A stretch of DNA of 64,000 bases from Microcella indica (GTDB lineage Bacteria; Actinomycetota; Actinomycetes; Actinomycetales; Microbacteriaceae): the NCBI RefSeq assembly GCF_013414345.1, contig NZ_CP058670.1, positions 1,860,001-1,924,000 on the forward strand, written 5' to 3'. Position numbers and translations under genes: made by a program. Positions 31,793-61,300 of this stretch are shown here, piece by piece (positions within the stretch are counted from its first letter, which is position 1; each line of letters begins with the position of its first letter). Below the pieces are notes generated by a model. It was given only the letters and a program-made list of their open reading frames with translations, ran no database searches and was not told the DNA's origin.

Positions 31793-32278
31793 TCACAGTC
31801 CTTGTCGCAGGTAGAGAGCGCGGCCGATGTGGTCGGCGCTCGGGCGGTCGGCTCCGTCGAGGTCGACGATCGACCACGCGATGCGCAGCACGCGGTCGTA
31901 GCCGCGCATGGTGAGAGCGCCCCGCTCGAGGGCGCGGTCGAGCGCGGCGCGATCGCGGGGCGCGAGCCTCCAGGTCGGCGACCGCAGCACCGTTCCCGGC
32001 ACCGCGGAGTTGAGTGACCACCCGGCGCTCCCCCATCTCTCGCGTGCGCGGGCGCGCGCTGAGCAGACACGAGCGCGCGCGGCCGTCGTCGTCACCGCGC
32101 CCTCTCCTCCCGCCGTCATCTGGGCCGCGCCGACGCGGCGCACCGTGAGCCGCAGGTCCACGCGGTCCAGCAGCGGCCCCGAGAGCCGCCCGAGGTAGCG
32201 GCGACGCATCATGGGAGTGCACGTGCACGCCCCGTCGAGGGACTCGGCCTGGCCGCACGGGCACGGGTTGGCCGCGAG
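31793..32278 (-). pseudogene. comM: ComM (YifB, Mg-chelatase-like ATPase), 3' fragment
   Basis: About 160 codons from the C-terminal third of ComM, a hexameric helicase that extends recombination branches in transformation. Homology starts abruptly at LAANPCPCG (the position after the second beta strand), followed by CTCTPMMRRRYLGRLSGPLL, DRVDLRLTV and the C-terminal helical domain ending YLRQGL. The codon just upstream encodes Lys where the family has a hydrophobic residue, so the break lies at 32278/32279. A chimeric open frame continues to 32377 within the inserted element. The 5' two-thirds, with the Walker motifs, are absent from the window. Confidence 0.92.
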
Positions 32279-32320
32279 CTTGTGGCTGGGGTTTCCGGCG
32301 TGTCCGGTGTTCACTGCCTG

Positions 32321-33841
32321 ATGTGCGGTCATACGTTCGCTGACGTGATCGAGGACCGGACGCGCTGGAGCTTGCATCGAGTTCGTGAAGCATTCTCTCC
32401 ACCGCTGTTGCCCGAGCTATCGGGTTTCTCAGGAGTTGAGGCGTGGAGTAGATGGCGGTCCGATCTCGCGATCCCAGTGGGCACGCCGTTCCTCATAGCG
32501 CCAGACCTGAGTTACGACGTGAAGTTGAACGCGTTCTTCTATTCGGCAGACATGCTGTCGTCGCGAATGTCAACGCGTTTGGGGTACGCGAGAGATCTCA
32601 AAGGATTCCTCGACTTCCTCGAACACGCCCGGGTAGGAACCAGCTGGTGGAACGCCGATCAAGAGGACCACCGCGCCTACTTGGTGTGGCGTCGTGAGGA
32701 CCTGACCGGGCCGCGCGTGAGTCCAGCGACGTGGGATCGGGAAGTGAGCGCCGTGGATCGCTTCTACCGGTGGCAGCTACTGAACGGTCACGTAGCGGCG
32801 CATCCGATCCCGCAGCGAGCGAAACGTTCCGGCCGCAAGGGCACTCCGCCGGTGGCATCAGGACAGACCGCGGCAACGTACTCCCATTCGGCAAGACGCG
32901 GACTGATTGCCTGGCTCCCGGCTCGGTCCTACCGCATCTGGAGAGATGTCGGTCTCCGCGGGTACGGTTCGGACGGGCTACGCGATCCGCTCTTCCGGGG
33001 TCGGTGGGCTGACCGCAACGCCGTCTTCGCTGACATGATGGTCCGCACCGGCCTACGCCTTTCCGAGCAGTCAGCGTTGAGCGTGATAGAGCTGCCAGAG
33101 GTTCGAGCCAGCAGCGGGTACCACCGGTTCTGGTTGCCGCCCGCGATCGCGAAGGGAGGCTCCGCTCGGTGGGTGTACGTGCCGACGCGCATCCTTCGCA
33201 TGCTTCACTCGTACGTCGACATCGACCGGCGGCTCAGCATCACTCAAGCGCAACGACGAGGAGCATACGATCGCCCCGACGCCGGGTTCTTGTACCTCGA
33301 CGCTCACTTCCGCGCACACGCGACCGCGGAGGGCGCGTCCACGAGAGACAGCTCCGTTCGGTTATCGCAGTTGACTGCCGACGAGCGGCGCCGACTGCTG
33401 ATGCAGGGGCCGGAGGGCTGGGAACCGGCGTCACTCTGGTTGACCGAGGAGGGGATGCCGGTCTCGACTTCCACATGGAAGGACATCTTCCGGCAGGCGA
33501 ATCAACGGTGCGCCAACCATGAGATCGGCGTGGCGGCGCATGCACACATGCTGCGCCATACGTTCGCTGTTCTCACGCTGGAGCAGTTGCAGCGGGGGCA
33601 TATCGCTTCGCTCGCCCACCTGAATCCGGCGCAGCGCACCCACTACACGCGCGTGTTCGGCGACCCGCTCGACTGGGTGCGGCAACGGCTCGGACACAAG
33701 AGCGTCACGACCACGCAGGTGTACCTGCATGCTCTGGAGGAACTGGAGATGGAGACGCGGATGAAGCTGGTGTCGGACCCATGGGAGGACTCGCGCGACA
33801 CCGCGCTGGTCATCACTCACGAGCCCGGATCCGAGCTATGA
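32321..33841 (+). CDS. Tyrosine recombinase, first of trio (TnpA-like)
   Basis: A 506-residue integrase. The N-terminal third is a core-binding domain (RMSTRLGYARDLKGFLDFLE). The catalytic domain shows the first Arg in MVRTGLRLSEQSAL, the HxxR motif in HAHMLRHTFAVL and the C-terminal RQRLGHKSVTTTQVYLHALE with the nucleophile Tyr. This makes it the best-preserved enzyme of the three. The start is uncertain. The ATG at 32321 is used here, but a GTG at 32282 would begin right at the element edge and there is no strong ribosome site for either. Its stop overlaps the next ATG. Confidence 0.82.
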   Translation: MCGHTFADVIEDRTRWSLHRVREAFSPPLLPELSGFSGVEAWSRWRSDLAIPVGTPFLIAPDLSYDVKLNAFFYSADMLSSRMSTRLGYARDLKGFLDFLEHARVGTSWWNADQEDHRAYLVWRREDLTGPRVSPATWDREVSAVDRFYRWQLLNGHVAAHPIPQRAKRSGRKGTPPVASGQTAATYSHSARRGLIAWLPARSYRIWRDVGLRGYGSDGLRDPLFRGRWADRNAVFADMMVRTGLRLSEQSALSVIELPEVRASSGYHRFWLPPAIAKGGSARWVYVPTRILRMLHSYVDIDRRLSITQAQRRGAYDRPDAGFLYLDAHFRAHATAEGASTRDSSVRLSQLTADERRRLLMQGPEGWEPASLWLTEEGMPVSTSTWKDIFRQANQRCANHEIGVAAHAHMLRHTFAVLTLEQLQRGHIASLAHLNPAQRTHYTRVFGDPLDWVRQRLGHKSVTTTQVYLHALEELEMETRMKLVSDPWEDSRDTALVITHEPGSEL

Positions 33842-35604
33842 GCCCCCGCGGAACGACGCGCACCGGACGGGCTGCGGCAATGCCGAACCGCCCGTACGCC
33901 GCTCGTCCTCTCACGGTCGGGACACTGGTCGAGTTCCATGGCGAGGACGGCCGCACGTACACATTCGATGTCGGGACCTTGCCGCTGCCCGAGTGGCATG
34001 AGGCGCTGGCCGCAAGCTGGGCGGCGAGGATCGGACCAGCGGGCACGCTACGCACTCGCGCCTCGGCGCTGAGCGCGTGGGGCGGTCTGGGACGAATGAT
34101 CCGCTGCTACGCCCAGATGCTGCAACCGCCCAGGACGCCTGATCAACTCACCATCGACCACGTCGATGCCTACCTGCGTCTCCGCACAGCCGCCGTCGGT
34201 GTCTCGCCGGCGGGCGAGGAGTCTCGCATCGCTGCGGCGACGTTCGAGACGCAGCCGCTGGCGAGTCTGGTCGCCCCCGAGGTGCGAGACCGGATGCGCC
34301 CGAGGTCTCGGCGCCGCAGGAACCCGCTCCCGGGCTACTCCGACGGCGAGCTCCGACGGATCGTTGCCGCTGCGCGCGCTGACGTGATCGCGCTCCGCGA
34401 CCGGCTCACGGCGACGACACCTGCTGACCTGACCGGATCAGCCCGGGACCGCCTCGACGCCGCACGGGAAACAGGAAAGGTGTCCGTGGCCGGACTCCCC
34501 CTACGCGAGCAGCCTCAGACACGCGCCCGGATAGCACGGCAGCTGTTCGTCACGAACGAGGATCTGACCCCGATGCTCGTCCTGCTGGTGGCGACGACGG
34601 GCTGGAATGTGGAAGTCATCAAGGACCTGCCATCCCACCATCGGCGGATCGAGGATCTCGCCGTCGAGCTCGAGGTGACAAAGCGGCGCCGCGGAGCCGG
34701 CCGATGGCATCAGACAGTGACCTGGGAGATCGGCCCGTCGAACAAGGAGCTCATGACCCCGGGTGGCGTGTACCTCCTCTTGCACGCGCTGATGGCTCCC
34801 GCCCGCGACCTCCTCGCTGACGCCCCCTTCTGGGCGACCTGGCACCGGGCCGGCCAGAGGAAGCAAGGATGTCGGAATCCGTTCGGTCACGAACTGGGCG
34901 CGAACGTCTACATTCAGCGGTGGGTACGCGCGCACCAGCTCCTCGCCGACCCCGTGAGCACCGGCGACGACGCCGAACCGCTGGTGCTGAACTTCAACCG
35001 GCTCAAGACCAGCATCGATGTTCGCCGCACCCGGCAGATGGGCGGCCATCTGCCCTCCGCAGTGCGCAGCAACAGCACGACCGTCCTGTTCCGCAACTAC
35101 CTTTCCGGTGATCCGTCCACGATCGACTGGGCTCGCGAGGTGGTCGCAGACGCGCTCACCGACTTGGAACGGACCGCATGGGAGACCCACCAAAAGGCGC
35201 TGGCCGGACACGGGCGCCGCGCCCTACGGATCCAGCCGCGCGCCGCGGACACGGACGAGCACATCCCGGGGACGGAGACCGCGTGGGCCAGTTGCGCCGA
35301 TCACGATCATCACCCGGGAACGGGGCGACGATGCACGGCGAGTTTCCTCGACTGCTTCCATTGCGGGAACTGCGTGATCACCGACGAGCATCTCCCTCGA
35401 CTGCTCAGCCTTCTGGACGCCCTGGAACAGCGCCGTCAGCACATGACCAACGACGCCTGGTGGGAGCGCTATGGGGCAACCTGGGCGGCCATACGCCGCG
35501 AGGTGCTGCCTACGTTCAGCGAAGCGGAAGTCGATCAGGCAGCCCAACACAAACCCGACGACAGCCTCCTCGACCTTGTCGAGCCGACGTGGGAGCAGCC
35601 ATGA
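33838..35604 (+). CDS. Tyrosine recombinase-like protein, second of trio
   Basis: A 588-residue protein. The middle region (LFVTNEDLTPMLVLLVATTG, then WNVEVIKDLPSHH) matches the recombinase catalytic core, but the first catalytic Arg seems to be replaced (GWNVEVIKD). The later RRTRQMGGHLPSAVRSNSTT keeps only part of the usual HxxR pattern. The C-terminal 100 residues contain a His/Cys-rich group (CADHDHHPGTGRRC, then CFHCGNC) that could bind zinc. It may act with its neighbours in a mixed synaptic complex rather than cut DNA on its own. It begins and ends with ATGA overlaps. Confidence 0.75.
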   Translation: MSPRGTTRTGRAAAMPNRPYAARPLTVGTLVEFHGEDGRTYTFDVGTLPLPEWHEALAASWAARIGPAGTLRTRASALSAWGGLGRMIRCYAQMLQPPRTPDQLTIDHVDAYLRLRTAAVGVSPAGEESRIAAATFETQPLASLVAPEVRDRMRPRSRRRRNPLPGYSDGELRRIVAAARADVIALRDRLTATTPADLTGSARDRLDAARETGKVSVAGLPLREQPQTRARIARQLFVTNEDLTPMLVLLVATTGWNVEVIKDLPSHHRRIEDLAVELEVTKRRRGAGRWHQTVTWEIGPSNKELMTPGGVYLLLHALMAPARDLLADAPFWATWHRAGQRKQGCRNPFGHELGANVYIQRWVRAHQLLADPVSTGDDAEPLVLNFNRLKTSIDVRRTRQMGGHLPSAVRSNSTTVLFRNYLSGDPSTIDWAREVVADALTDLERTAWETHQKALAGHGRRALRIQPRAADTDEHIPGTETAWASCADHDHHPGTGRRCTASFLDCFHCGNCVITDEHLPRLLSLLDALEQRRQHMTNDAWWERYGATWAAIRREVLPTFSEAEVDQAAQHKPDDSLLDLVEPTWEQP

Positions 35605-37679
35605 CAGTCCAGCTCGCCCGCACCCCGACCAGTGGACCCCTTGCCGACGTGTACGTGCTGCACGGGCGCCCGCTGCGCCCGGGGGTCGAGCTCACTCAGA
35701 CGGCGCGGTTCGGGGATGACGAATGGCCGATCGGTCCCGCGGCGCTGCAGACCCAACAGCGCAGCCTCACCCTCCGGTTCGACACCGCGACCAAGCAGTA
35801 CCGGCATGTCCTGAAGCAGTTCACCTACGCGGCCCTGTCCGGCCCGCTCCCGCCCAACGAAGCGCGCCTCACCATCAGCAGCGTCTACTCCGTCTTCTAC
35901 AACCTCGCCGTGTTCTTGCGTTGGCTCGATGTGAACCACGGCGGCCGCGCACTCTCACTGATCACCGCCGACACGCTCCTGGGATATCATCACCACCTCG
36001 CCGTCACCTACCGCAGCGCGACGCGACGACACACCCTGCGAGCTGCGGTCGCGTTCCTGTGGCGATACCGCCACGCCTTTGGCCACGACGCACTACGCCT
36101 GGACCCCCGAACGATCCCAGAATGGCGAGAGCGGAACACCTCCCGGACGGAGAACACCACCGCCCGTATCCCAGAAGAAGTCCACAGCCGGCTACTGGTG
36201 TGGGCGATGCGGTTCGTGAACGACTTCGCCGAGGACATCCTGACCGCCGTTGTCAAATGGGAGAAGCTGCGACGCCCGCGTCTCCCACAACGCCGCACAC
36301 GGGAGTTCAACGACGCCAGCGTCTCCCAGTATCTGGCGGAAGCCCGAGCGGCCGGGCACCCTCTGCCAGGTTTCAACGGACAGGTCAACCACGCCGCGAT
36401 CGCCCGCACCATCGGCTGCAACCGTCGGGCCGTCGACGACCACGCGGACGACTTCGCCGAAGCAGCCAAGACCCTCGGCGTGTCAGACTTCATCTACCTC
36501 GACATCGACGTCACCGGACACATCGACGGGGACAGCTGGATCGAAGGCGTCACGCTCGACCCCGCCCGCGACGACTCTCTCGCCGTTCTCACCCAGATGC
36601 TGCAAGCGGCCTGCTACATCATCATCGCGTTCCTGTCCGGGATGCGCGACAGCGAGGTCAAACACCTGCGGCGAGGGTGCTCCACCGCTCACCTTGACGG
36701 CAACGGCCAGCCCTACCGCTGGACAGTCTCGAGCCTCGCGTTCAAAGGGGAAGACGACCCCACCGGGGTTCCAGCGACATGGGTGATCGGCGCGCCCGCC
36801 GCGAGGGCCATCGCTGTCCTCGAACAGGCACAAGACCGGGCGCACAACCGCACGGACTGGCTCTTCGCGCCGATCAAGACCGGACCCGGGACCGGATCGG
36901 CCGGGCGACTCGGAAACAAGACGATGACCAACGCCGGCAGCAACCGGCAGCTGAACAGGTTCGTCACCTGGGTCAACGACTACTGCTGCACTCGTGGCCG
37001 CAACGACGGCATCCCTGACGTCGACGGCCGCCCCTGGCGGATCAGCACCAGCCAATTCCGCCGCACCCTGGCCTGGTACATCGCCCGCCGGCCCGGTGGC
37101 TCCATCGCGGGGGCGATCGCCTACCGCCACCACAGCATCCAGATGTTCGAGGGGTACGCCGGCACTAGTGATTCGGGATTCCGCGCAGAGGTCGAAGCCG
37201 AACAAGCTCTCACGCGCGGCGAGGACCTCCTCGCCGTCATCGACCAGCACGATCACACGCGCCTCGCCGGTCCCGCCTCTGATGAAGCGCGGCGCCGGCT
37301 CGACCTCATGGGTCAGACCCCGGGATTCGCAGGCACCGTCACCACAGACCGTCGACGCTTCCTGCGCCTGATCAGCGCCCACGATCCCGCAGTGTATCCC
37401 GGCAGGTACGTCACGTGCGTGTACTCCCACGACAAGGCGCTCTGCCGCGCGGGCTCGTCAGAATCAGACAGCTCTCCAGACCAGTCGAACTGCAAACCGC
37501 TCACCTGCCGCAACGTCGCCCTCACCGAAGACAACATCCAGTCTTGGCGGGAGGAGCTCAACGGGCTCGACGCGCAGCTCGCTTCCCGACCGTCGCTCCC
37601 GCCCGCGCTCGAGACGCGGATAAGAGAACGTCGTGATCAGATCACCCAGTTTCTAATGAAGAGCCAGGATCCCCGATGA
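35601..37679 (+). CDS. Tyrosine recombinase, third of trio (TnpB-like)
   Basis: A 692-residue integrase of the long TnpB type. The catalytic domain lies at about residues 330–530. It includes IIAFLSGMRDSEVKHLRRG with the first Arg, ISTSQFRRTLAWYIARRPGG in place of the HxxR block, and AYRHHSIQMFEGYAG with the His and the likely nucleophile Tyr. The C-terminal tail has several Cys (CVYSHDKALC, CKPLTCRN) in a likely zinc-binding arrangement and ends in a short coiled coil. Long recombinases with this tail are typical of Tn554-like elements. Confidence 0.8.
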   Translation: MTVQLARTPTSGPLADVYVLHGRPLRPGVELTQTARFGDDEWPIGPAALQTQQRSLTLRFDTATKQYRHVLKQFTYAALSGPLPPNEARLTISSVYSVFYNLAVFLRWLDVNHGGRALSLITADTLLGYHHHLAVTYRSATRRHTLRAAVAFLWRYRHAFGHDALRLDPRTIPEWRERNTSRTENTTARIPEEVHSRLLVWAMRFVNDFAEDILTAVVKWEKLRRPRLPQRRTREFNDASVSQYLAEARAAGHPLPGFNGQVNHAAIARTIGCNRRAVDDHADDFAEAAKTLGVSDFIYLDIDVTGHIDGDSWIEGVTLDPARDDSLAVLTQMLQAACYIIIAFLSGMRDSEVKHLRRGCSTAHLDGNGQPYRWTVSSLAFKGEDDPTGVPATWVIGAPAARAIAVLEQAQDRAHNRTDWLFAPIKTGPGTGSAGRLGNKTMTNAGSNRQLNRFVTWVNDYCCTRGRNDGIPDVDGRPWRISTSQFRRTLAWYIARRPGGSIAGAIAYRHHSIQMFEGYAGTSDSGFRAEVEAEQALTRGEDLLAVIDQHDHTRLAGPASDEARRRLDLMGQTPGFAGTVTTDRRRFLRLISAHDPAVYPGRYVTCVYSHDKALCRAGSSESDSSPDQSNCKPLTCRNVALTEDNIQSWREELNGLDAQLASRPSLPPALETRIRERRDQITQFLMKSQDPR

Positions 37680-38062
37680 CCCGAGCCGTCTCCCTACCGA
37701 CCGTCGCGCAAATCGACGATGCCCTCACCGTCCTGCGAAGCGGCAGCGATCGTCCCGTCAGCACGAGCGGCCTCGCCGCGCACTTGGGGCTGTCCAACGC
37801 AACCTTCTGGAGACACTTCCCGGCAATCGCGCAACGCGTCTCCGACGAACGACGTGCCGCGCTCCGCGGCCCGAAGCGTTCTGTATCGGAGGCAGAACCG
37901 CGAGGCGACGCCGAGGCGAAGCTCCGGCGAGACATCGCCGCGCTGCGCGGGCAGCTCGATCTCGCCGTCGCTCACATCCAGCGGCTCACGCTAGAAAACG
38001 AAGCGCTCCGCAGCCGGGCGGAATCACACAGCAACATCATCCGCCTCGACGACGCGCGCTAG
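37676..38062 (+). CDS. Small HTH/coiled-coil protein of the recombinase module (TnpC/DUF6262-like)
   Basis: A 128-residue protein. The first 60 residues include a helix-turn-helix-like segment (TSGLAAHLGLSNATFWRHFP). The last 60 form a coiled coil with a leucine-type spacing (LRRDIAALRGQLDLAVAHIQ, then RLTLENEALR). It overlaps the third recombinase by 4 bp. In Tn554 a protein of about 125 residues in this position (TnpC) influences the orientation and frequency of transposition. Assignment rests on size, position and coiled coil. Confidence 0.65.
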   Translation: MTRAVSLPTVAQIDDALTVLRSGSDRPVSTSGLAAHLGLSNATFWRHFPAIAQRVSDERRAALRGPKRSVSEAEPRGDAEAKLRRDIAALRGQLDLAVAHIQRLTLENEALRSRAESHSNIIRLDDAR

Positions 38063-38319
38063 CCCGAAGCGATCGAATCGCAGCTACCTGACTTCGAAGG
38101 GATCCTCGGTGCCCGTTCACTCCGCGGATGGCCTCGACGTGGGGTGCGGAGAGCCCGCGCGCTTGTGCGCCGGCACAGTTCTCGACCGGTTCCCCTTGGT
38201 CATAGACGTGGTGTGAGGAGGAAACCCAGGAGGACGAATGGCGCACCCCGGGGTGGCGAAGCTCGCCGGCTCAGCGTACGATCGCGTCTCGAACACAGTT
38301 ACTATTTCGGGAGGTTGCG
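38063..38319. other. 257-bp region after the recombinase module
   Basis: No convincing gene is seen. AGGAGG at 38228 followed by ATG at 38238 could start a short frame, but that frame overlaps the better-supported gene at 38320 and becomes Arg/Pro-rich. The element's right terminus may lie here. I found no copy of the left-end sequence. Confidence 0.35.
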
Positions 38320-38598
38320 ATGATCGTCACCGTCGAACAAAGAACGGCAACCCTTTCGTTCCAAGACGACCGGCCCGTGACGCTTCTCTGGGACCACAAA
38401 CGGTGGCAGGTGCTAGACGCCCCTACCCGGATCGGCGCGCCCGGCAACCGTTCCTACTCGCCGTTGATCACGCATCCGCCGCGACCCTGGGCAGGATGGC
38501 GATTCACAGCCCGCGTCGACGACCGCACACAGACCTATGTCTTCGACCTCCGTGAGACGAACTGCAACAGCTACGAGGTGCTCGGTGTCTACGAATGA
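38320..38598 (+). CDS. Hypothetical protein, 92 residues
   Basis: I do not recognise the family. The ATG has a good ribosome site (GGGAGG, seven bases upstream). The product is a likely small beta-rich protein (VEQRTATLSFQDDRPVTLLW, then AGWRFTARVDDRTQTYVFDL) with no membrane segment. It resembles small actinobacterial proteins found behind DNA polymerase genes, but that similarity is only an impression. The next gene overlaps its end by 14 bp, so the two are probably co-translated cargo of the element. Confidence 0.55.
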   Translation: MIVTVEQRTATLSFQDDRPVTLLWDHKRWQVLDAPTRIGAPGNRSYSPLITHPPRPWAGWRFTARVDDRTQTYVFDLRETNCNSYEVLGVYE

Positions 38599-38896
38599 GG
38601 CCCCTGCTCAACTCCCGCACGGCATCCAATTGCAGCTGCTTCCGCCCAGGTCCGCACGGTTACGCAACCGCCCACCGGAGTGGGAGGTCCTGCTCAACGG
38701 CAAACGCATCGGCCGGATTGAACAGTGGAGCGTCAGCAGCTCCTCCTCGACCTTCTACCGCGCCACGGCCATCCACCCCCAGACCGGAGAGCCGATCCCC
38801 CTCGAATCCAACACCGACTTTCCCGAACGGGTCGAAAAGGTCGTCGCAGCATGGAACAATCCCGCGCGTTTCGTTCACCGGTCCTCGTGGGAGTGA
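38585..38896 (+). CDS. Hypothetical protein, 103 residues
   Basis: A GTG start (VSTNEAPAQLPHG) preceded by GAGGTG lies inside the previous gene. The central part (WEVLLNGKRIGRIEQWSVSS, then TFYRATAIHPQTGEPIPLES) looks like a compact beta-sheet domain, with a helix near the end (FPERVEKVVAAWNNP). No family is recognised. Coupling to the preceding gene suggests the two act together. Confidence 0.5.
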   Translation: MSTNEAPAQLPHGIQLQLLPPRSARLRNRPPEWEVLLNGKRIGRIEQWSVSSSSSTFYRATAIHPQTGEPIPLESNTDFPERVEKVVAAWNNPARFVHRSSWE

Positions 38897-39040
38897 GTAA
38901 ACCGGCTGGTGCTCAAGTCCCCCGTGTGACGTGCGGTTCCTGCCCGCGCCGGCATCGCAAGCGGGAACGACGGATCCGGGCGTCAGGCCCTGCCAGGACC
39001 GAGCCTGGCTGATCCTGCGAAAGCTGAAGCTGAACGGCGC

Positions 39041-39547
39041 TCATGCATCCGTGGTGCCTGGGGACTCCCGGGTGAGCGAAAAGCGGACGCGTCTGTCTGG
39101 CGTGGTGAGCCAGTGGATCAAGCGACCTCGGACTTCGCGTCGTTCGAGGATCGTTGCATCCTCGATCCACATAAACGCAGTGCCAAAGTCGATGGTTTGC
39201 TGGCCGGTAGCTACCTGAAGAGGAACCTCGACCGCCACAGGACCAGGGATCGTATCGACTTCCGCTGCGAGCTCGAGTCCCAAGGCGTGACCCTCTGGGT
39301 AGGCGGCAATGACGGACTTCCCTTCGAGGAGTGTGGCCGCGCGTCGCCAACTCGCCACCTGCGCATTGGTTGTTGCCGTGAGGTCCGGAACACGGACTAT
39401 CGTGCCGGTGTGCTCTTGCAGTCTCGCGAGGGCGTCGACGGGAACTGCGATCGCATCGAGAAGCTCGCGGATCTCCAGAGGGAACTCGACGCCCCAATTC
39501 GGATCGGTGCTCGCACTGCGTGCTGGAGCGCCAGTGGAGTCCCACAT
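39041..39547 (-). pseudogene. 3' fragment of an unrecognised gene cut by IS256
   Basis: About 168 codons read from the insertion-sequence edge (the first codon outside happens to be ATG, giving MWDSTGAPARSAS). The product is a plausible soluble protein (PLEIRELLDAIAVPVDALAR, then LQEHTGTIVRVPDL, then DFGTAFMWIEDATILERREV) with no known motif. No ribosome site precedes it. It lies in the same orientation as the nuclease-like gene on the far side of the insertion, so it may be that gene's detached 3' part. Family unknown. Confidence 0.55.
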
Positions 39548-39560
39548 AGTGGTGTAACGC

Positions 39561-39605
39561 ACGGTGGTCGCGCACGTCGTTGCTGACGTGGACGCGGTCA
39601 CCGTG
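39561..39605. repeat. 45-nt palindrome inside the IS256 left end
   Basis: CACGGTG (39561–39567) pairs with CACCGTG (39599–39605). Inner CGCG/CGCG and ACGTC/GACGT pairs complete a long stem with a short loop. In the right end the matching outer and inner repeats are separated by only GC, so the left end carries this hairpin as an extra block. It could act as a barrier to transcription entering the transposase gene. Confidence 0.6.
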
Positions 39606-39652
39606 TGATCCTTCGAGAAGTCTCTTACCTCCACTCGAAAGGCATCAACACG

Positions 39653-40900
39653 ATGACCGCTCCACACATTGTCGACCCTGCGACCGTTCTGGGTGAAGCC
39701 CTCTCGGAGGCGTCGCCGGATTTGATGAGGCATTTGCTGCAGACCATGATCAACGCCCTGCTGTCCGCTGATGCCGACGCTGTGGTCGGCGCCGAGTGGG
39801 GCAAGCCCAGCCCTGATCGGGTGACGCACCGCAACGGCTACCGGCACCGTGACCTGGACACTCGCATCGGCACGATCGATGTCGCGATCCCGAAACTACG
39901 ATCGGGCACCTACTTTCCGGAGTGGCTGCTGGAGCGCAGGAAACGCTCCGAGGCGGCTCTGATCACCGTGATTGCCGACTGCTACCTCGCCGGGGTGAGC
40001 ACCCGGCGGATGGACAAGCTGGTGAAGACTCTCGGCATCAACGCTCTATCGAAGTCGCAGGTCTCGCGGATGGCTGCCGAGCTCGACGAGCAGGTTGCCG
40101 ACTTCCGGCACCGGTCTTTGGTCGAGGCGGGCCCGTTCACGTTCGTGGCTGCCGACGCTCTCACGATGAAGGTTCGCGAGGGCGGCCGGGTGGTGAACAC
40201 GGTCGTGCTGATCGCCACCGGGGTCAACGGCGACGGCCGCCGGGAAGTCCTCGGCCTGCAGACGGCCACGAGCGAGACCGGGTCGGCGTGGAATGCGTTC
40301 TTCGCCGACCTCGTCGCCCGCGGGCTCACCGGCGTGCAGCTCGTCACCAGTGACGCGCACGCCGGCCTGAAAGACGCGATCGCAGCGAACCTGCCCGGCG
40401 CCACCTGGCAACGCTGCCGCACCCACTACGCGGCGAACCTGATGAGCGTGACCCCGAAGAGCATGTGGCCGGCGGTGAAGGCGATGCTGCACTCCGTCTA
40501 TGACCAGCCCACCGCCTCCGACGTCCACGCCCAGTTCGATCGGACCCTGGATTACGTCGCCGAGAAGCTCCCCGCGGTCGCCGAGCACCTCGATACCGCT
40601 CGGGCCGACATTCTCGCCTTCACCGAGTTCCCCAAAGATGTCTGGTCGCAGATCTGGTCGAACAATCCCAACGAGCGCCTCAACCGCGAGATCCGCCGCC
40701 GCACCGACTCCGTGGGCATCTTCCCCAACCGCGACAGCGTCATCCGCCTGGTCGGCGGCGTTCTGGCCGAGCAGACCGACGAGTGGGCAGAGGGGCGCCG
40801 CTACTTGGGCCTGGAGGTCCTGGCACGCTCCCGCATGCGGGTGCTGCCCAACAACGGAGACGAGGTGGTCGCCGACACCTTCATCGCGCTCAGCGCATAA
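39653..40900 (+). CDS. IS256 family transposase
   Basis: A 415-residue DDE transposase of the mutator/IS256 type. The start MTAPHIVDPATVLGEALSEA is followed by RVTHRNGYRHRDLDTRIGTI. The catalytic core has FVAADALTMKV with the first Asp, VTSDAHAGLKDAI with the second, WQRCRTHYAANLM, and SNNPNERLNREIRRRTDSVG with the Glu. The length is normal and the gene looks intact, so the element may still be mobile. The ATG at 39653 is preferred over an in-frame start at 39605 that lies in the terminal repeat. Confidence 0.95.
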   Translation: MTAPHIVDPATVLGEALSEASPDLMRHLLQTMINALLSADADAVVGAEWGKPSPDRVTHRNGYRHRDLDTRIGTIDVAIPKLRSGTYFPEWLLERRKRSEAALITVIADCYLAGVSTRRMDKLVKTLGINALSKSQVSRMAAELDEQVADFRHRSLVEAGPFTFVAADALTMKVREGGRVVNTVVLIATGVNGDGRREVLGLQTATSETGSAWNAFFADLVARGLTGVQLVTSDAHAGLKDAIAANLPGATWQRCRTHYAANLMSVTPKSMWPAVKAMLHSVYDQPTASDVHAQFDRTLDYVAEKLPAVAEHLDTARADILAFTEFPKDVWSQIWSNNPNERLNREIRRRTDSVGIFPNRDSVIRLVGGVLAEQTDEWAEGRRYLGLEVLARSRMRVLPNNGDEVVADTFIALSA

Positions 40901-40916
40901 AGCGAAGGATCAGCCG

Positions 40917-42164
40917 TTACACCACTTCCAGGGACTTGACCGGAGCGCCTTTACGCCGCACCCTGACCGTGTTCGGGGATGCCGCTGATGAGATGAACGC
41001 CAGAGCATCGCGCACCCCCAGAGCTGGCTGGTTCGAGTAGTCCCCGAAGCGGAACTGTCGCTTGCCTCCTTCAGACGGTGCGTAGCGGTCCTCGACAGTG
41101 AACACGTTGTTCCTCTGCCGGAGCACCACACGGATCCCCTTCGAGCCCTCACTCCGCTCGATACGGGTCACCTCTGTCGATGCGATCACCTCACCCTCCG
41201 GGGTATAGCTCTCAAGGATGAGATCTGGATCAGCACCGACGTCGTCGCCGAGCGAGACAACCTGCATCGCCGCGTCCTTCAGCGGCCCGCCGAGCCCTCC
41301 AGGAGCGTCGATGCTGCCGGCGAAAGCGCCTCGCGGAGTCACGAATGGCGTACCGAAGTCAACAAAATCCTGAACAGCTGCAGCCAAGTCGGAGTCCCGC
41401 TCCGCGGTCACTGTTCCCGATACGATGATGGGTCGTTCCGTTGCCGACGCGGCGCACCTGGCGATCACGTCCACTGCCTGCCAACTCTTCCCTGGGCCGT
41501 CAGAGTGAATCCAAGTCATCATGAGGTTCGGACGGTCGACCGCCCCGGGTAGTTGCCCGTCCCCCATCCGGAGTTCGTACTTGTAGTGGGGATCCCCCTC
41601 CAAGACTGTGAGCGCCTTTGCCAACCGGGACGAAACGGTCGGGACATCCAGAGCCTCGTTCGCTTCGTAAGGAGCGAGCAGCGCAACGACCACTTGGTAC
41701 GCCTCTTCGATGCGGCTCTTCCCGCCCTCCAAGTAGCAATCGATGACCTCGGGATACTTCGCGGCGAGGGCGTCAATGTATGTCAGGCCATGCCAGACGA
41801 CAGTATGCGAGCCGCCGTCGTCCAGGCCACGAAGCCAAGACTCGGCTTCGGGTGTTGGGTCCCATGGCGTGACTAGGTGCCACTCCTCGACGTTGAGTGC
41901 TTCCCAGCGTGGGTCTGACTGAAGACGAGACCACGACTCCTCGACCCTGTCCTGCTGATTCGCCGAGAGCGGTTTCGTGTAGCGCTTGACCTGGTAGACG
42001 ACGTCACCCCCGTCTGCCGCTGCCCCTCGGTCAAGGATGTCCACCCCGCCATCACCCCTCGATGGCGTTATGCGTACGGAGTTTGGGTGCTCCCGATTGA
42101 TGAGCATCGCGACAACTGCCTCAATGTCGTTGCCCTCATACCGTTCCCACGCAATGCGCGTCAT
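40917..42164 (-). CDS. PD-(D/E)XK nuclease-domain protein, C-terminus altered by IS256
   Basis: A 415-residue protein. The first 110 residues look like a Mrr-type restriction-endonuclease fold, with GDGGVDI near residue 38 (Asp42) and VVYQVKRYTK near 56 (Gln58, Lys60), which is the D...QxK core of PD-(D/E)XK enzymes. The remainder includes helices around 155–200 and a beta-rich C-terminal region, and I do not recognise it. The last codons (Val-Val-stop) lie inside the IS256 right terminal repeat, so the natural C-terminus is probably lost. It is divergent from the HEPN-like gene, and a role in restriction or phage defence is inferred. Confidence 0.7.
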   Translation of the reverse strand: MTRIAWERYEGNDIEAVVAMLINREHPNSVRITPSRGDGGVDILDRGAAADGGDVVYQVKRYTKPLSANQQDRVEESWSRLQSDPRWEALNVEEWHLVTPWDPTPEAESWLRGLDDGGSHTVVWHGLTYIDALAAKYPEVIDCYLEGGKSRIEEAYQVVVALLAPYEANEALDVPTVSSRLAKALTVLEGDPHYKYELRMGDGQLPGAVDRPNLMMTWIHSDGPGKSWQAVDVIARCAASATERPIIVSGTVTAERDSDLAAAVQDFVDFGTPFVTPRGAFAGSIDAPGGLGGPLKDAAMQVVSLGDDVGADPDLILESYTPEGEVIASTEVTRIERSEGSKGIRVVLRQRNNVFTVEDRYAPSEGGKRQFRFGDYSNQPALGVRDALAFISSAASPNTVRVRRKGAPVKSLEVV

Positions 42165-42376
42165 CGATTCCCGCTCTCATCGTCCACGGCGCTGGCGCCT
42201 ACCCACACCATGAGGTCACGCTAGCGGGGCTCCGCAGGGCCCGGGCCGAACGGCACCCACGGCCACGAGGACCCAACACCGGGTCAGGCTCCGTGTCTTG
42301 TGAGCTCGTGCGCGGTTGCGAACTGAGTCAAGAAGCGCGCCTACGCGGTTCACCTTTGGTGCACTAGGTTCCAGAT

Positions 42377-43042
42377 GTGAATGAGCACGCAAAGCCGCAG
42401 TCGCCGCCCACAGGAAGTCGTAGGTTCCTAAGTCCTCATGAACGCAGCGTCGTCGTGGATACGAAATCCACGGTCGAACTTCGCGATCTCGCAAGCTACG
42501 CCCGGGATCTGGAACTCGCCGCTGAGTATCTTCGGCACTACCTTGCGGGCGACATTGAGGAGGACGCGAACTACGCATCGCCCCTTGACGCAATGGCGAT
42601 GATGGCGATCGTCATGTATGCACGCACCTTCTCCAAAGGCGTGCGCAGTGCCGCGGGGCCGGACCTTAGCCAGCTCAGTCCGGATGAGACGGAGCTTCAC
42701 CAGTACATCCTTGATGTGCGAAACAAGTATCTTTCCCATTCGGTGAATGGGTTCGAGCACGTCGAGGTAGTCGCATTCCTCACCACGTCCACACCCACGA
42801 AGCGGGCGATCACCGGCATCGGGAACGTTCACACTTCGCTGAGCCGCATGGACCGCAAGTCTGCCGAGGCTACTCTGGCCCTGTGCGATCGTCACTCCGC
42901 AGCACTACAACGCAGGATGCAAGCGCTACACGTGAGAATCACCAAGGAACTCCTTGCGCTCGGTGTGACCGCCGTCTATGAGTTGCCTGATCACACTGAC
43001 CCGCGGATTGACCAGAGCGCAGCACGCAGGCGGCGCAAGTAA
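42377..43042 (+). CDS. Hypothetical protein with RNxxxxH (HEPN-type) motif
   Basis: A 221-residue soluble, mostly helical protein. Helices such as ASYARDLELAAEYLRHYLAG and MAMMAIVMYARTFSKGVRSA are followed by ELHQYILDVRNKYLSHSVNG. There Arg115-Asn116-x4-His121 fits the R-polar-x4-H signature of HEPN ribonucleases found in toxins and defence systems. I did not recognise a closer family. The start is GTG at 42377 without a clear ribosome site, and the true start may be a few codons away. It is divergent from the nuclease-like gene with a 212-bp gap. RNase activity is inference from the motif. Confidence 0.6.
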   Translation: MNEHAKPQSPPTGSRRFLSPHERSVVVDTKSTVELRDLASYARDLELAAEYLRHYLAGDIEEDANYASPLDAMAMMAIVMYARTFSKGVRSAAGPDLSQLSPDETELHQYILDVRNKYLSHSVNGFEHVEVVAFLTTSTPTKRAITGIGNVHTSLSRMDRKSAEATLALCDRHSAALQRRMQALHVRITKELLALGVTAVYELPDHTDPRIDQSAARRRRK

Positions 43043-43096
43043 CCAAGGAGCAGCATCCATACGAGGTGCCAAGAGGCCACGGGTGGCGCGGGCAGA

Positions 43097-43166
43097 AGAT
43101 GATCACCGATTTGATGGCGCCCCCGGACTCCGAGTCCTCGAATGCCTGCTGATGTCGTCGAACTCA
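43097..43166 (-). pseudogene. Degenerate copy of alcohol dehydrogenase 3' end
   Basis: About 70 bp match the last codons of the intact dehydrogenase gene (44201–44271) with roughly nine in ten bases identical, in the same orientation. One base is missing relative to the intact gene, so the frame is lost. Nothing of the rest of the gene is present. Together with the intact copy it brackets the folP fragment as a direct repeat. Confidence 0.8.
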
Positions 43167-43298
43167 AGAGCCCGCGCTGCGCGACCGGTCTGGCTGGCGA
43201 CGCGACCGCGTAGGCTCGCAACATGGCCGTCCATCGTGATCGCGTCGCGCAGCACCCGCCGAGATCGTGATGCATTCGACGAGCGAAAGGCGGCTGTC

Positions 43299-44096
43299 GT
43301 GACGCTGGTCATGGGCATCGTCAACGTGACCCCGGACTCGTTCAGCGACGGCGGCCGGTACCTCAACGCGGACGCCGCGATCGCACACGGCCGCGCCCTT
43401 CGCGCAGCCGGAGCCGATCTAATCGATGTGGGCGGCGAGTCGACCCGGCCCGGTGCGCAGCGGGTGGCTCCTGCGCTCGAGCAGGACCGAGTGCTGCCTG
43501 TGGTGGCCGCCCTCACGGCCGACGGCGCGATCGTGAGCATCGATACCGTGAACGCCGCGACCGCTGCGGCGGCCGTCGCGGCGGGCGCGCGCATCGTCAA
43601 TGACGTCTCGGCTGGCCTCGCCGACCCCGAGATGCTCCCGGCCGTAGCGGCAACCGGCGCCGACATCATCCTGCAGCACTGGCGCGGGCCGTCCTCCGAC
43701 ATGTACGCGCAGGCGACATACGGTGATCTGGCGCGCGAGCTGGTCGCCGAGCTCGACGGCCGCGTGCGCGCCGCGGCCGAGGTCGGTATCTCGCCCGATC
43801 GTGTGATCGTCGACCCCGGGATCGGCTTCGGAAAGCGCGGCGCGCAGAACTGGCAGGCGCTGCACGCTCTCGACCGGATCATGGCACTCGGACCGCGCGT
43901 GCTGGTCGGCACGAGCCGCAAGCGCTTCCTGGCGGACGCGCTCGGCGAGGACGCGTCCGAGCAACGCCGCGACCTCGCCACGGCGGTGACGAGCGTGCTC
44001 GCCGCGCAGGCCGGGGTCTGGGCCGTCCGCGTCCACGATGTGATCGCGACACGCGATGCGCTTTCGGTATGGCAGCGGTGGGAGAACGCGACATGA
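43299..44096 (+). CDS. folP: Dihydropteroate synthase
   Basis: A 265-residue TIM-barrel enzyme that joins p-aminobenzoate to the pterin in folate synthesis and is the target of sulfonamides. Family motifs are intact: VMGIVNVTPDSFSDGG at the start, DLIDVGGESTRPGA near residue 50, VSIDTVNAATAAAAV, RIVNDVSAGLADPEM, VIVDPGIGFGKRG and LVGTSRKRFL. The GTG at 43299 follows AAAGG at a good distance, and longer frames cross the dehydrogenase remnant. It is of ordinary actinobacterial type and lacks the altered loops of mobile Sul enzymes. It overlaps the folB fragment (ATGA), so it was cut from a folate operon. Confidence 0.92.
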   Translation: MTLVMGIVNVTPDSFSDGGRYLNADAAIAHGRALRAAGADLIDVGGESTRPGAQRVAPALEQDRVLPVVAALTADGAIVSIDTVNAATAAAAVAAGARIVNDVSAGLADPEMLPAVAATGADIILQHWRGPSSDMYAQATYGDLARELVAELDGRVRAAAEVGISPDRVIVDPGIGFGKRGAQNWQALHALDRIMALGPRVLVGTSRKRFLADALGEDASEQRRDLATAVTSVLAAQAGVWAVRVHDVIATRDALSVWQRWENAT

Positions 44097-44200
44097 CCGA
44101 GCGGATCCTGCTTACCGGCATCCGCGCCACCGGCCATCACGGCGCGCACGGCCGCAATCTTCCCTGCCGTCCTCCAGCGGGTGTGGGACTCGCGCTCTAG
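44093..44200 (+). pseudogene. folB: Dihydroneopterin aldolase, N-terminal remnant
   Basis: A 35-codon frame beginning at the ATGA overlap with folP. MTERILLTGIRATGHHGAHG matches the start of FolB, but after about 20 residues the homology ends and the frame stops at 44200, in the 3' end of the convergent dehydrogenase gene. This is the scar of the recombination that placed folP here. Confidence 0.8.
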
Positions 44201-45297
44201 TAGATGATCACGGGTTTGATGGTGCCCCCGGACTCGGAGTCCTCGAATGCCTTGTTGATGTCGTCGAACTCGTAGGTACGGATGAGCTTGTCGAACGGGA
44301 AATCGCCCTTCTCGTACATTCGGATGAGCTTCGGGATGTACAGCTGCGGGACGGAGTCTCCCTCGACGACGAGACTGAGTTTGAGGCCGGTGAGAAGGAG
44401 AGTGCCGATGTTGAACGGTGCCTCCGTACCCAACGGTGCGGCGCCGACGAGCGCACCGTGCCCGCGAGTCGCCAGGGAGGCCAGCATCTGGGGGAAGACG
44501 TCTTTGACGCCCGTGGAGTCGAGAGCGAAGTTGACCCCTTCGCCGCCGGTGATGTCACGAATAGCCTCCACCGGGTTGGTGTCCCGGGAGTTCACGGCAT
44601 GGGTTGCACCCAGCTCGCGGGCGAACTCCAGGCGTGACTCGACGATGTCGACCACGATGACTGTGGTCGCACCTGATGCGATGGCCGCGAGCATTCCTGC
44701 CATCCCGACAGCGCCGGTACCGAAGATGGCGATGGATGAGCCTGGTCCGGGCTGAAGAACGTTGAGGACGGCGCCGGATCCGGTCTGAATGCCGCAGCCG
44801 AGAGGACCGAGAATCTCTAGCGGGACGTTCTCGGGGACTTTGACGACGTTCCTGGCGATGACGTTCGTCACGGATGCGAACGAGGACTGACCGAAGAAGT
44901 TCGAGGAGATCTCGCCGTCGTGATCTGTGAACATCTTGGAGCCGTCGGGACGCGAGCCTCCGAAGTTCAGCGGGTAGAAGTCGACGCAGTACGCCGGGTG
45001 CCCGTCGACGCAGTGGGCACAAGCACCGCACGCGGCCGGCGCCAGGACGACGTGATCGCCCGGTGCGACGGTGGTGACGCCCGCTCCCACCCGCTCCACG
45101 ATGCCGGCACCCTCGTGCCCGAGGACGGCGGGCAGCGGCGTCGGGTACCACTGGTCGCGCACGATCGCGTCCGTGTGACACACGCCGGATGCGACGAGTC
45201 GAACTTGAACCTCGTCTTCGCGAGGTTCATCCAGGTCGAGTTCTCGTATCTCGAGCGGGGTGTGGGGCGCCGTCGCGACAGCAGCACGAATCCTCAT
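44197..45297 (-). CDS. Zinc-dependent alcohol dehydrogenase (aryl-alcohol type)
   Basis: A 366-residue medium-chain dehydrogenase. The catalytic zinc site includes Cys40 (VASGVCHTD) and LGHEGAGIVERVG, and the structural zinc loop is CGACAHCVDGHPAYC. The Rossmann motif is IFGTGAVGMAG, with an Asp (IVVDIVESR) that favours NAD. The sequence is of the aryl-/benzyl-alcohol dehydrogenase type, and the nearby benzaldehyde-type dehydrogenase and catechol genes fit that. The ATG at 45297 has AGAGGA upstream. Its stop codon touches the folB remnant on the other strand. Confidence 0.9.
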   Translation of the reverse strand: MRIRAAVATAPHTPLEIRELDLDEPREDEVQVRLVASGVCHTDAIVRDQWYPTPLPAVLGHEGAGIVERVGAGVTTVAPGDHVVLAPAACGACAHCVDGHPAYCVDFYPLNFGGSRPDGSKMFTDHDGEISSNFFGQSSFASVTNVIARNVVKVPENVPLEILGPLGCGIQTGSGAVLNVLQPGPGSSIAIFGTGAVGMAGMLAAIASGATTVIVVDIVESRLEFARELGATHAVNSRDTNPVEAIRDITGGEGVNFALDSTGVKDVFPQMLASLATRGHGALVGAAPLGTEAPFNIGTLLLTGLKLSLVVEGDSVPQLYIPKLIRMYEKGDFPFDKLIRTYEFDDINKAFEDSESGGTIKPVIIY

Positions 45298-45441
45298 TGA
45301 TTTCCTCTTCTGCAGGTGCGGTGCCGCGGTGCGGCGATCCTCGATCAGACTGCGGAAGTGGTCTGGTGTCCTCATGAGCGCGGGACGGATCACGCGATCT
45401 GGTCTACATCGACCACTCTCGCAACACGCTACGCAGAGCGC

Positions 45442-46740
45442 CTAACTCGCTGAATGACCGGATTCGTCTGCGTTGATACGTTCCCGATCCGAATCGGGTG
45501 CGCTGCTGTCGCGGAGGTCTCCTTCACCGGCGATCGTGCCCGATTCTCGATACCGTGCGGCGAGCTCGCTGCGTGAGCGGATGCCGAGTTTCCCGTAGAT
45601 GCGGGTGAGGTGGTACTGGACGGTCTTCGCCGAGATGTAGAGCTCGGAGGCGACCTCCCGGTTCGACTTCCCGTTGGCGACGAGGCCCGCGACAAGACTT
45701 TCCTGCGAGGTGAGCTCCAGATCGGGTTGTCCTCCACGCTGTGCCCCGATTCCTGCCGCGGCAATCTCCCGGTCGCATCGCTCGATGTAGCGTGTTGCTC
45801 CAAGTCGCGCGAACAGCTGCCGGGCCGACCACAGTGCGGTGTCGGACTCGCGTCGCTTGCCGGCACGTCGGAGGGACTGGCCGTAGGCGAACCACAGACG
45901 CGCCCGATCCACCTCCAGCGGCAGCCCTTCGATGCTGTGCAACGCGTCCTCGAACGTTCGCCGCGCATCCTGTATCTGACCCTGCGCCGCATGCAGTCGC
46001 CCGAGAGGCAGCCCCAGCCGGGCGAGCGAGACGATGTCGCCGCGGCGTTGAGCCAACGCGATCTGCGGCTCCAGGAACGTCTGCGCCTCCTCGAGGCGAC
46101 CCTCCATGACGAGCGCATTCGCGTATATGTCACCCCAAGGCCAGAAGCCGGGTTCGTTGACAGGGTCGTCGGGTGCGCGGTCGGCCAGCGGCGAGAGCGT
46201 GCGCACGACGCCGCGGTAGTCGGCGGAGGTTTCGGCCGCGCTGGCCCGCGCGATCAAGCTCGGCAGCTGCATCACGAGGTAGTCGGTCGACACGCTCGAG
46301 CCGCGTTGCAGGCTCGCAACAGCTCTTTCGTCGTCGTTGCGCATGGCGTGGATCTGGCTGATCGTCCACTCCAGAAGCGGCACGAAGAAGGCCATCCCGG
46401 AGTGCTCGACGATCTCGAGGCCGCGGCGTGCGATGTCCAAGGCGTGATCCCAGTCCCCCACGAGGAACAGCACCCGCGCTAGCCACGCGTGCGCCCAGGC
46501 CGAGATGCGCAGCGAGCCGCCGCCAGCTCAGGGTCGCTCGCCGGGTCCACGGTTCGCCACGCACGAGACAACCTGGCGTCCGCCTCGGCCGGCTGACCTT
46601 GCACCACGGCAAGGTATCCGAGGACGGCATCGTGCAGCGTGGTCTCCCGAAGCCGGTCGACCTGCGGGAGGAGGTCTCGCGCGGCGAGCGTATCGCCGGC
46701 CGCGACGAGCGCGTCGATGGCTCTCACCCGTCGCTCTTCC
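45442..46740 (-). pseudogene. LuxR-family (LAL/TPR type) regulator, frameshifted and 5'-truncated
   Basis: The 3' part (to about 46500) encodes TPR-like helices (LFLVGDWDHALDIARRGLEI) and a C-terminal LuxR helix-turn-helix (LVANGKSNREVASELYISAK, then TVQYHLTRIYGKLGIRSRSE). Upstream, the same protein continues in a different frame (VRAIDALVAAGDTLAARDLL, then VVQGQPAEADARLSRAW). The frames join near 46510–46520 by a one-base shift. At about 46740 coding stops where GMC-oxidoreductase sequence begins on the other strand. The N-terminal half with any ATPase domain is missing. The gene is unlikely to make a working regulator. Confidence 0.8.
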
Positions 46741-46745
46741 TTCAG

Positions 46746-47417
46746 CCCCTCGGCGTGGGACGGAACCTCCACGATGCCCCCGTCGTGCTGTTGCCTTTCG
46801 CCGTCGAACCCCATCCGACGGCCCGTCCGTTGCGCGGCGCACCGGCTTCCCTGCTGTGGCGAAGCGACGCCGGCCTGGACTCTTCAGACATGCAGCTGAC
46901 CGTCCTGGGTCCGCGGGTCGCCGAGCACGCCTTCGTTCTTGCGCTCACTCTGGCCCCGCTCAGTCGCGGCGAAGTGCGACTGGCCCCACCCGGGTGGGGC
47001 GAGATCCACATCCTCAAGCGCCGCCTCCTGACCGATGATGCCGATGTCGACCGGATGCTCGACGCCCTCGGCGTGGTGAGGGACCTGGCAGAGACGGCGG
47101 CATTCGCGTCCGTCGGCTGCCGCGAGCTCGCGCCCACCCCGTTCGCTCGCAGCCTGACCGGTCTGCGCGAGTATGTGCGGCGCATCGCAGGACGGGCGGG
47201 GCGGGCAGGCGGGACCTGTGCGATGGGGATCACTCCGTCGTCGGTGGTCGATTCTCACCTTCGTGTCCACGGCGTGAGCGCGCTTCGCGTCATCGACGAA
47301 TCAGTCCTGCCCGCGCCAACCGCAGTGAACCCGAACGCCGCGACCATAGCGATCGCCGTGCGCGGCGCCGAGCTGCTGCTCGCCGGCACCCCCGCCGAGC
47401 GCTCCCACGCCGCCTGA
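46746..47417 (+). pseudogene. GMC-family oxidoreductase, C-terminal fragment
   Basis: About 220 codons with the C-terminal half of a choline-dehydrogenase-like flavoenzyme: LGVGRNLHDAPVVLLPFAVE at the break, LAPLSRGEVRLAPPG in the middle, and GGTCAMGITPSSVVDSHLRV followed by SALRVIDESVLPAPTAVNPN at the end. The N-terminal FAD-binding half is missing, replaced by the antisense LuxR remnant. No ribosome site or plausible start exists at the break. It lies 37 bp upstream of the aldehyde dehydrogenase and may once have fed alcohol-derived aldehyde to it. Confidence 0.85.
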
Positions 47418-47454
47418 CGTGACGCCAACCCAACCAACCCGGAAGGAAACCACC

Positions 47455-48939: not shown

Positions 48940-48950
48940 TCGCCCCTGAC

Positions 48951-48987
48951 GTACTGCCCGCGCTGGAGGATCCGGCGCGGGCAGTAC
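48951..48987. terminator. Hairpin terminator after the aldehyde dehydrogenase
   Basis: A perfect 13-bp stem, GTACTGCCCGCGC (48951–48963) with its complement at 48975–48987 and an 11-base loop, lies 12 bp after the stop codon and before the convergent permease gene. There is no T-run. Confidence 0.7.
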
Positions 48988-49160
48988 TCGATGGTGCGCC
49001 CGGTGCGGCACCATCTGACCGGCAGCTGCAACTAACGCGGGTCGCGATGAGAGTGAGCGTGCTGATCGTGGCGCGCGATCGCGGGAAGCGGTCGGACCGG
49101 CCATCCTCTCGCCTCGCTGAAGCAGCCCAGTCGAGGAAGCGGCCGGCACGGCTGAGGCGG

Positions 49161-51040: not shown

Positions 51041-51050
51041 GAGCGCCCCC

Positions 51051-52492: not shown

Positions 52493-52543
52493 CTCGCTCT
52501 TCCCTCGGTGCTGGGGCACGTGCATGCCCCAGCACCGGCGTCG

Positions 52544-53845: not shown

Positions 53846-54118
53846 GTGCGTCCTTACACACTCGTGGAGCTACGGCTTCCGCCGCATTGCTCCTCTTCCT
53901 CGGGTTGGAAACCGATGATTGCATGCGATCCCTGCGCCCGGAACCCGTTATCCAGACCGGCCTCCTCTGAGTCGAGACCTGTATCGGATGGATCGGTGCC
54001 GACGCACCAACCATGGATGATTCAGACGCTGTAAATATGAATAGAGAGGATTTATGTCATTCATTTCACCGAGTGCGCCGCTTAGCCTGCCTCTAGGTCG
54101 AAGGCGCAAGGAGGCACG
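53846..54118. promoter_or_regulatory. Divergent control region, transporter operon / LysR–cat operon
   Basis: This 273-bp gap holds an AT-rich patch at about 54030–54070. ATGAAT (54037–54042) and ATTCAT (54059–54064) form an inverted pair, a layout fitting LysR-type regulator binding next to promoters. It probably carries both promoters. No gene is seen. Confidence 0.5.
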
Positions 54119-56127: not shown

Positions 56128-56132
56128 CCGGG

Positions 56133-57330: not shown

Positions 57331-57338
57331 CGATCGCC

Positions 57339-57379
57339 GTCCCGGTAGGTGGGGATCGATCATCTCCGCCTACCGGGAC
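57339..57379. terminator. Hairpin between catA and pcaD
   Basis: GTCCCGGTAGG (57339–57349) and CCTACCGGGAC (57369–57379) form a perfect 11-bp stem. It follows the catA stop by 9 bp and may attenuate or end the catBCA transcript, or protect its 3' end, before pcaD. Confidence 0.6.
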
Positions 57380-57407
57380 CTTGTCCGAGTCAACACAAAG
57401 CCGAACC

Positions 57408-61299: not shown

Positions 61300-61300
61300 G

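Follow-up and report, generated by a model that had tools for sequence, protein, structure and literature searches.

A probable site-specific mobile element with a tyrosine-recombinase module interrupts comM in the actinomycete Microcella indica

Introduction

What has cut the competence gene comM of Microcella indica in two, and what has become of the half that is not beside dprA? In other bacteria comM helps the uptake of foreign DNA, and its 3' part in M. indica ends directly at a recombinase gene. We addressed the question in a window of 64,000 nucleotides, which runs from 1860001 to 1924000 on one contig of 2,585,348 bp, and in the sequence beyond its right edge. A sequence-only reading of the window had proposed that comM served as the insertion site of an island and that its 5' part was missing. 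Our comparisons suggest, with a probability of roughly 0.87, that a site-specific mobile element with a Tn554/Tsy-like tyrosine-recombinase module has integrated into comM.

Results

The two halves of comM

The 3' part of comM (31793..32278, minus strand) encodes ComM residues 477-637, that is, LAANPCPCG onward together with the C-terminal domain (tblastn; Pfam PF01078 profile positions 154-205, and PF13335). As the sequence-only reading had noted, ComM homology stops sharply at LAANPCPCG (32278), and the ORF of a tyrosine recombinase begins at 32282. The absence of a comM 5' part from the 64-kb window, also noted there, was borne out, but the conclusion that the 5' part is missing was not, as extension of the contig to the right, which the same reading had suggested, recovered it on the same contig, where the window edge had hidden it. 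With an intact same-genus ComM as the tblastn reference, residues 477-637 correspond to window positions 32278-31796 (74% identity over 161 aa) and residues 35-476 to 65771-64449 (76% identity) in extended coordinates, which carry the window numbering on past 64000 (a position in locus L003 being the extended position minus 52000). The near end of the 5' half lies 449 bp past the window edge, the ChlI domain of comM was placed at contig positions 1925061-1925429 by a Pfam search of the genome, and yraN (UPF0102, 2e-27) is found directly upstream of the 5' part, likewise past the edge.

The cut is clean. It falls between residues 476 and 477 (FQLV|LAANPCPCG), the segments 35-476 and 477-637 abut with no gap, and the Mg_chelatase profile (PF01078) is divided at position 154, with 1-154 in the 5' part and 154-205 in the 3' part. 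In both of the two same-genus genomes sampled comM is uninterrupted, and comparison with such relatives, again a step proposed beforehand, defined the ends of the element and revealed that no comM residue is lost. The best PF01078 match in the M. indica genome spans positions 1-154 only, so the genome holds no intact second copy of comM; the sequence-only reading had made impaired transformation depend on this.

Both halves flank the insert, which upholds the proposal that comM was the insertion site of an island. Delimited by its end motifs (TTGTG...CACAA) and by the split comM, the element runs from 32280 to 64443 in extended coordinates (32280..64000 within the window) and measures 32,164 bp. 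Junctions compared with those of intact relatives and other elements place a 6-bp core at each side, differing in sequence: GCTCGC in the sense of comM at 32274..32279 on the comM 3' side, and CGCCCG at 64444-64449 (extended) on the 5' side, where the comM 5' part occupies 64449-65771. On the comM strand the sequence across the 5'-side joint is CTCGT-CGCCCG-TTGTG... and that across the 3'-side joint is ...CACAA-GCTCGC-GGCCAAC. If the flanks are connected through the 3'-side core, the product is FQLVLAANPCP, in frame and the same as in intact relatives; through the 5'-side core it is FQLVARANPCP. A core of 5 bp was rejected, as it would leave the joined site out of frame, whereas 6 bp fits. That the two cores of the 32-kb element differ (GCTCGC and CGCCCG) counts against the main reading. 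What the sequence-only reading did not foresee is that the insertion loses nothing and would in principle be reversible, nor that comM is split in nine of 150 genomes of the family.

The recombinase module

At one end of the element lies a module of four genes, ORF1 to ORF4, all on the plus strand and with the recombinase genes open. ORF1 (32282..33841, although the true start may be 32321) is a tyrosine recombinase by its Pfam Phage_integrase match (4e-11), and a single ORF1 match was found in the M. indica genome. Six of its residues (R259, K291, H422, R425, H472 and Y481) are invariant in an alignment of 18 sequences, and we assign them as the putative catalytic residues. ORF2 (33880..35604; 574 aa) is a conserved partner within the module that lacks a Pfam or NCBIfam match. 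ORF3 (35601..37679; 692 aa) has no domain match either, and some of its homologues are annotated 'integrase'; with R349, K382, R487, H510 and Y519 invariant in 23 aligned sequences, which we read as a putative active site, it is probably a long tyrosine recombinase. The small protein encoded by ORF4 (37676..38062; 128 aa), like ORF2 a conserved partner, matches an HTH model weakly (E 6.6e-4, under the cut-off of that model) and is TnpC-like by position and size only.

These alignments drew on the 34 loci described below. After rows with several pieces, short matches and duplicate sequence had been dropped, 22, 23, 22 and 20 sequences were left for ORF1 to ORF4, of which 17, 23, 22 and 18 were aligned together with the window's own sequence. 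Profile comparison found no similarity between ORF1 and ORF2 or between ORF1 and ORF3, and we count this against the main reading, as we do the lack of a domain match for ORF2 and ORF3. A profile search of the PDB returned one weak XerA match for ORF1, two insignificant matches for ORF2 and none for ORF3.

Related elements in other genomes

Relatives of ORF1 were found at 34 loci in named genomes, all with actinobacterial names. All four ORFs are present at 26 of these loci, ORF1-3 at six and ORF1-2 only at two. At three of the 34 loci the insertion is at precisely the same comM site, namely those of Mycobacterium sp. OTB74 (L007, with only the 3' half seen), Streptomyces sp. SPB162 (L013, an element of about 7.4 kb) and Streptomyces sp. 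AC555_RSS877 (L024, 6849-18456, about 11.6 kb). The same site is also occupied, by an element of about 8.6 kb (L043), in genome G087 from another genus of the same family, which came from the family survey; as ORF1-3 there share only 40%, 32% and 36% identity with their Microcella counterparts, this insertion is taken as independent. In L024 a decayed ORF1-like piece sits at the comM joint and the complete module is found 3 kb further in, an arrangement that we count against the main reading. The locus looks as if two elements were stacked.

The closest relative, from Arthrobacter sp. E3 (L034; ORF1-4 are 61%, 61%, 59% and 47% identical), is found in another gene. This element (7079-15647; 8,569 bp) interrupts a UmuC-like gene, with the break at VVVL|SNNDG; matches to IMS (starting at profile position 25), IMS_C and DUF4113 are present in the 3' part, and the gene start is at the element's other end. 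The core, CGTGCT, is identical on both sides, the polarity is the same as that of the comM elements, and the ends match those of the Microcella element at 26 and 29 of 45 positions. Brief inspection of nine other module loci named no target gene.

TTGTG is present at every end seen of the Microcella element, L013, L024 and L007, with the variants TTAGA and TTATG in L043. Similarity is higher between ends turned towards the same comM half (mean of 10.9 of 20 positions) than between ends turned towards opposite halves (7.4 of 20), each class comprising 16 non-independent pairs from nine ends of five elements. ORF1 adjoins the comM 3'-half end in Microcella and L007, and the 5'-half end in L013 and L043, which again counts against the main reading. 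Its position does not explain the likeness of the ends, since pairs of the same proximity agree at 9.06 of 20 positions and pairs of different proximity at 9.19 of 20, in a comparison that treats L024 as 5'-proximal though its complete module starts 3 kb inside. We read this pattern, five elements being few, as suggesting that orientation is set by the ends and that the module has switched from one side to the other.

When 394 genomes of the class were searched with the junction pattern, a mismatch-free match was obtained in the Microcella genome only, so this particular use of comM seems rare; we count this result, too, against the main reading. By eye, all five known junctions fit the search pattern within its two mismatches. 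Two further matches, with 2 mismatches each, were taken as chance, and a reversed control gave one.

comM as a target across the family

Among 150 genomes of the family, the PF01078 match is full-length in 129 (start at 1-2, end at 201 or beyond) and split in nine. The rest comprise one genome in which comM is cut by contig ends (G146, excluded from the nine since each of its two pieces stops at such an end), one with a partial match (G121) and ten with no comM-like match (three with none, seven with weak matches only); G066, whose halves are on two contigs, and G127, whose pieces overlap, were kept among the nine. Two of the splits lie at about position 154, those of M. indica and G087. The other seven (G041, G055, G057, G066, G080, G127 and G138) lie at the Walker B motif, with 5' pieces that end at PF01078 positions 115-124 (133 in G041) and 3' pieces that begin at 105-114 (78 in G127). 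ComM is left just after LFLD(E/D) in all eight 5' breaks read, including that of an extra comM fragment in G116. This Walker B break corresponds to ComM 437/438, and the Microcella break, at 476/477, follows 39 residues later.

The eight recombinases found near Walker B breaks (within about 1.6 kb, in seven genomes) are all large serine recombinases, with a Resolvase domain in eight, a Recombinase domain in six and a zinc ribbon in seven. A Pfam scan of the island ORFs found no such domain set (Resolvase with Recombinase and/or zinc ribbon). As a control, the adjacent competence gene dprA (PF02481) was matched in 148 of the 150 genomes, 145 of which gave no sign of a split (best E-value 2.1e-53 or better and, among the matches listed, at least 184 of 212 positions spanned); the matches in G025, G081 and G144 are weaker, and a split is possible there.

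Two further observations concern the Walker B site. In G116 (L056) an intact comM stands beside yraN, and a comM fragment about 13 kb away, 95% identical over 158 aa, ends at Walker B; the two lie at 1229-2875 and 14926-16203 of the locus, with what appears by eye to be a phage-like region between them, and it looks as if comM had been remade or duplicated beside a Walker B-site prophage. In G138 and G041 (L050-L053), Walker B-site insertions of about 68 and 74 kb separate the comM halves, and their outer 10 kb or so carry one large serine recombinase in G138 and two, one per end, in G041.

Cargo and the origin of the island

The island also contains an insertion sequence with an IS256-type (Mutator) transposase gene (39605..40900, plus strand; Pfam 5e-132) and a gene for an Mrr-type restriction endonuclease-like protein (40917-42164; Pfam 2.6e-5, with a weak PADLOC LmuA match, 0.0025). 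A second dihydropteroate synthase (42978..44096, plus strand, domain at 43311-44036; Pfam Pterin_bind 2.6e-75, TIGR01496) is 56% identical over 258 aa to the chromosomal copy elsewhere; it passes the general DHPS model and falls well short of the cut-offs set for the Sul1-4 models. The catabolic cargo (44197..62721) comprises alcohol/aldehyde dehydrogenases, a LuxR regulator, a branched-chain ABC transporter, LysR, catechol 1,2-dioxygenase, a thioesterase, IclR, a thiolase, CoA transferase A/B and a muconate-cycloisomerase-like protein below the curated cut-off, and includes catechol ortho-cleavage and beta-ketoadipate genes. A truncated GMC oxidoreductase at 46428-47417 has a complete GMC_oxred_C domain (5e-24) and no N-terminal domain. 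The best plasmid records match at most 4% of the 22.7-kb cargo. A sulfonamide-degradation (sad) cluster, which the additional dihydropteroate synthase together with an intradiol dioxygenase had suggested, was dropped because the scanned ORFs included no flavin-type monooxygenase and the cargo is in keeping with the catabolism of catechol and aromatic alcohols.

The insertion sequence and the truncated GMC oxidoreductase gene raise the question of whether the island is a composite, in which several elements and the IS accumulated stepwise at the comM site and only the outer ends derive from the first integrant. L024, with its decayed piece at the joint and its complete module further in, would fit such a history, as would the shorter lengths of the related two-ended elements (about 7.4 kb in L013, 8.6 kb in L034, about 8.6 kb in L043 and about 11.6 kb in L024). 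However, the genome holds that one ORF1 match only, and a scan for internal ends of the Y type (the end that faces the comM 3' half) gave five matches with substitutions, none like the true end, and we consider a composite origin possible, if somewhat doubtful. That a deletion removed the 5' part of comM and left a decaying 3' fragment, with recombinases adjacent by chance, is very improbable, since this reading draws on the window showing the 3' fragment only, whereas the contig also carries the 5' part, no residue is missing at the joint and homologous modules are found at the same site elsewhere. A Tn7-like island of the Tn6022/AbaR type, as in Acinetobacter, would share the target gene and has a negligible chance of being correct, given that Pfam found no Tn7-type transposase and no TnsA/TnsB/TnsC match among 36 island ORFs scanned (some probably in wrong frames), in line with the earlier claim of a different recombinase type, that the comM site differs, 39 residues after the Walker B break, and that the junctions have a 6-bp core and not a plain target duplication.

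Discussion

Integration of a site-specific element with its own tyrosine-recombinase module, the reading that we prefer, could have proceeded by crossover at a 6-bp core inside the codons of the conserved motif FQLV-L-AANPCPCG, which would have put end X next to the comM 5' half and end Y next to the 3' half without loss of sequence. The choice of the target might be made by a protein of the module. Such an element would be mobile, and its excision as a circle would restore or nearly restore comM. A wider proposal is tentative and may well not hold: a family of three-recombinase elements in actinomycetes might read a short attachment motif and integrate there through a 6-bp core, always with the same polarity, so that comM would be inactivated reversibly and regain its reading frame when the element leaves, in a gene shared with serine-recombinase elements that use the Walker B codons independently. 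The motif in this proposal would be TCGT-N6-NNCCAAC for the two most closely related elements, from which the others deviate, and would lie within the very conserved V-L-[AS]-x-N codons of ComM and UmuC, proteins of DNA transformation and repair.

Tn554-like elements insert in a site- and orientation-specific manner with a short core, and the same feature was found here, in the form of 6-bp cores and of an end polarity that does not vary, both among the five comM elements (one of which was seen at one end only) and in the umuC-like gene. The Tn554-like operon tnpA-tnpB-tnpC encodes two tyrosine recombinases and a small protein; the Microcella module likewise has a small last gene, as TnpC in Tn554, but three large genes, and the comparison runs via a trio on plasmid pNL1. 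This plasmid is listed as carrying a Tn554-like element in the available part of PMC3414803, which describes Tn554-related actinobacterial transposons and, as far as that part extends, does not name comM. Homologues of ORF1-ORF3 lie on pNL1 in the same order (NC_009426, 102783-108180; 35%, 25% and 32% identity), and no ORF4 match was found in that stretch. RIT elements, with three tyrosine recombinases (ritA-ritB-ritC) in about 3.5 kb, resemble the module in the layout of three adjacent large genes only.

According to the accessible portion of PMC10293859, Tn6022 and Tsy use the Walker B codons to enter comM; Tsy, in Zoogloea, lies between the 5' and 3' parts of comM, has a reported circular intermediate, and has its attachment site within 40 bp upstream of the insertion, overlapping these codons. 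As described there, Tsy resembles the Microcella element in having a tyrosine recombinase, a small HTH protein (the HTH match being weak in Microcella), a second large recombinase-like protein and a split comM, and TnsF of Tsy would be a candidate counterpart of ORF2 or ORF3. The Microcella element differs from it in inserting 39 codons after the Walker B break and in having ORF1 beside the comM 3' half. AbaR/AbGRI islands of Acinetobacter likewise sit in comM but have Tn7-like machinery, with the Walker B region as their target according to the same portion of PMC10293859, and an excerpt of PMC4774983 places mobile elements in comM of several Proteobacteria. Large serine recombinases share the gene and are unrelated enzymes, which in this family use the Walker B site and not that of the island; in the part available of a published data set, comM (by its annotation) is the target of 12.4% of predicted site-specific large serine recombinases.

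The cut in M. indica falls between Walker B and AANPCPCG, which we take to be sensor 1, so both ComM pieces should be inactive as ATPase. ComM function would thus be lost and transformation may be impaired, and dprA has possibly been separated from its native promoter. The genome has a comEC-family gene and a full-length dprA. In Acinetobacter, as far as the accessible text of PMC11472951 goes, loss of ComM lowers transformation with heterologous DNA, and AbaR/AbGRI islands in comM are linked to lower transformation.

As an integration target, comM is already published for Tn6022, Tsy and large serine recombinases. A module of three large genes at the second conserved comM motif looks like an undescribed variant; the accessible parts of the open-licence literature name no comM target for a three-recombinase module or for an actinomycete element, although the published serine-recombinase data set may well include actinomycetes. 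The present locus contributes a case from an actinomycete, with a further recombinase module, to what is known of comM as a landing site, and in nine of 150 genomes of the family one competence gene is entered, at two conserved motifs, by two integration systems unrelated to each other. This could be used as a model for why elements choose comM, be it that conserved codons offer a stable landing site or that the elements gain from blocking transformation.
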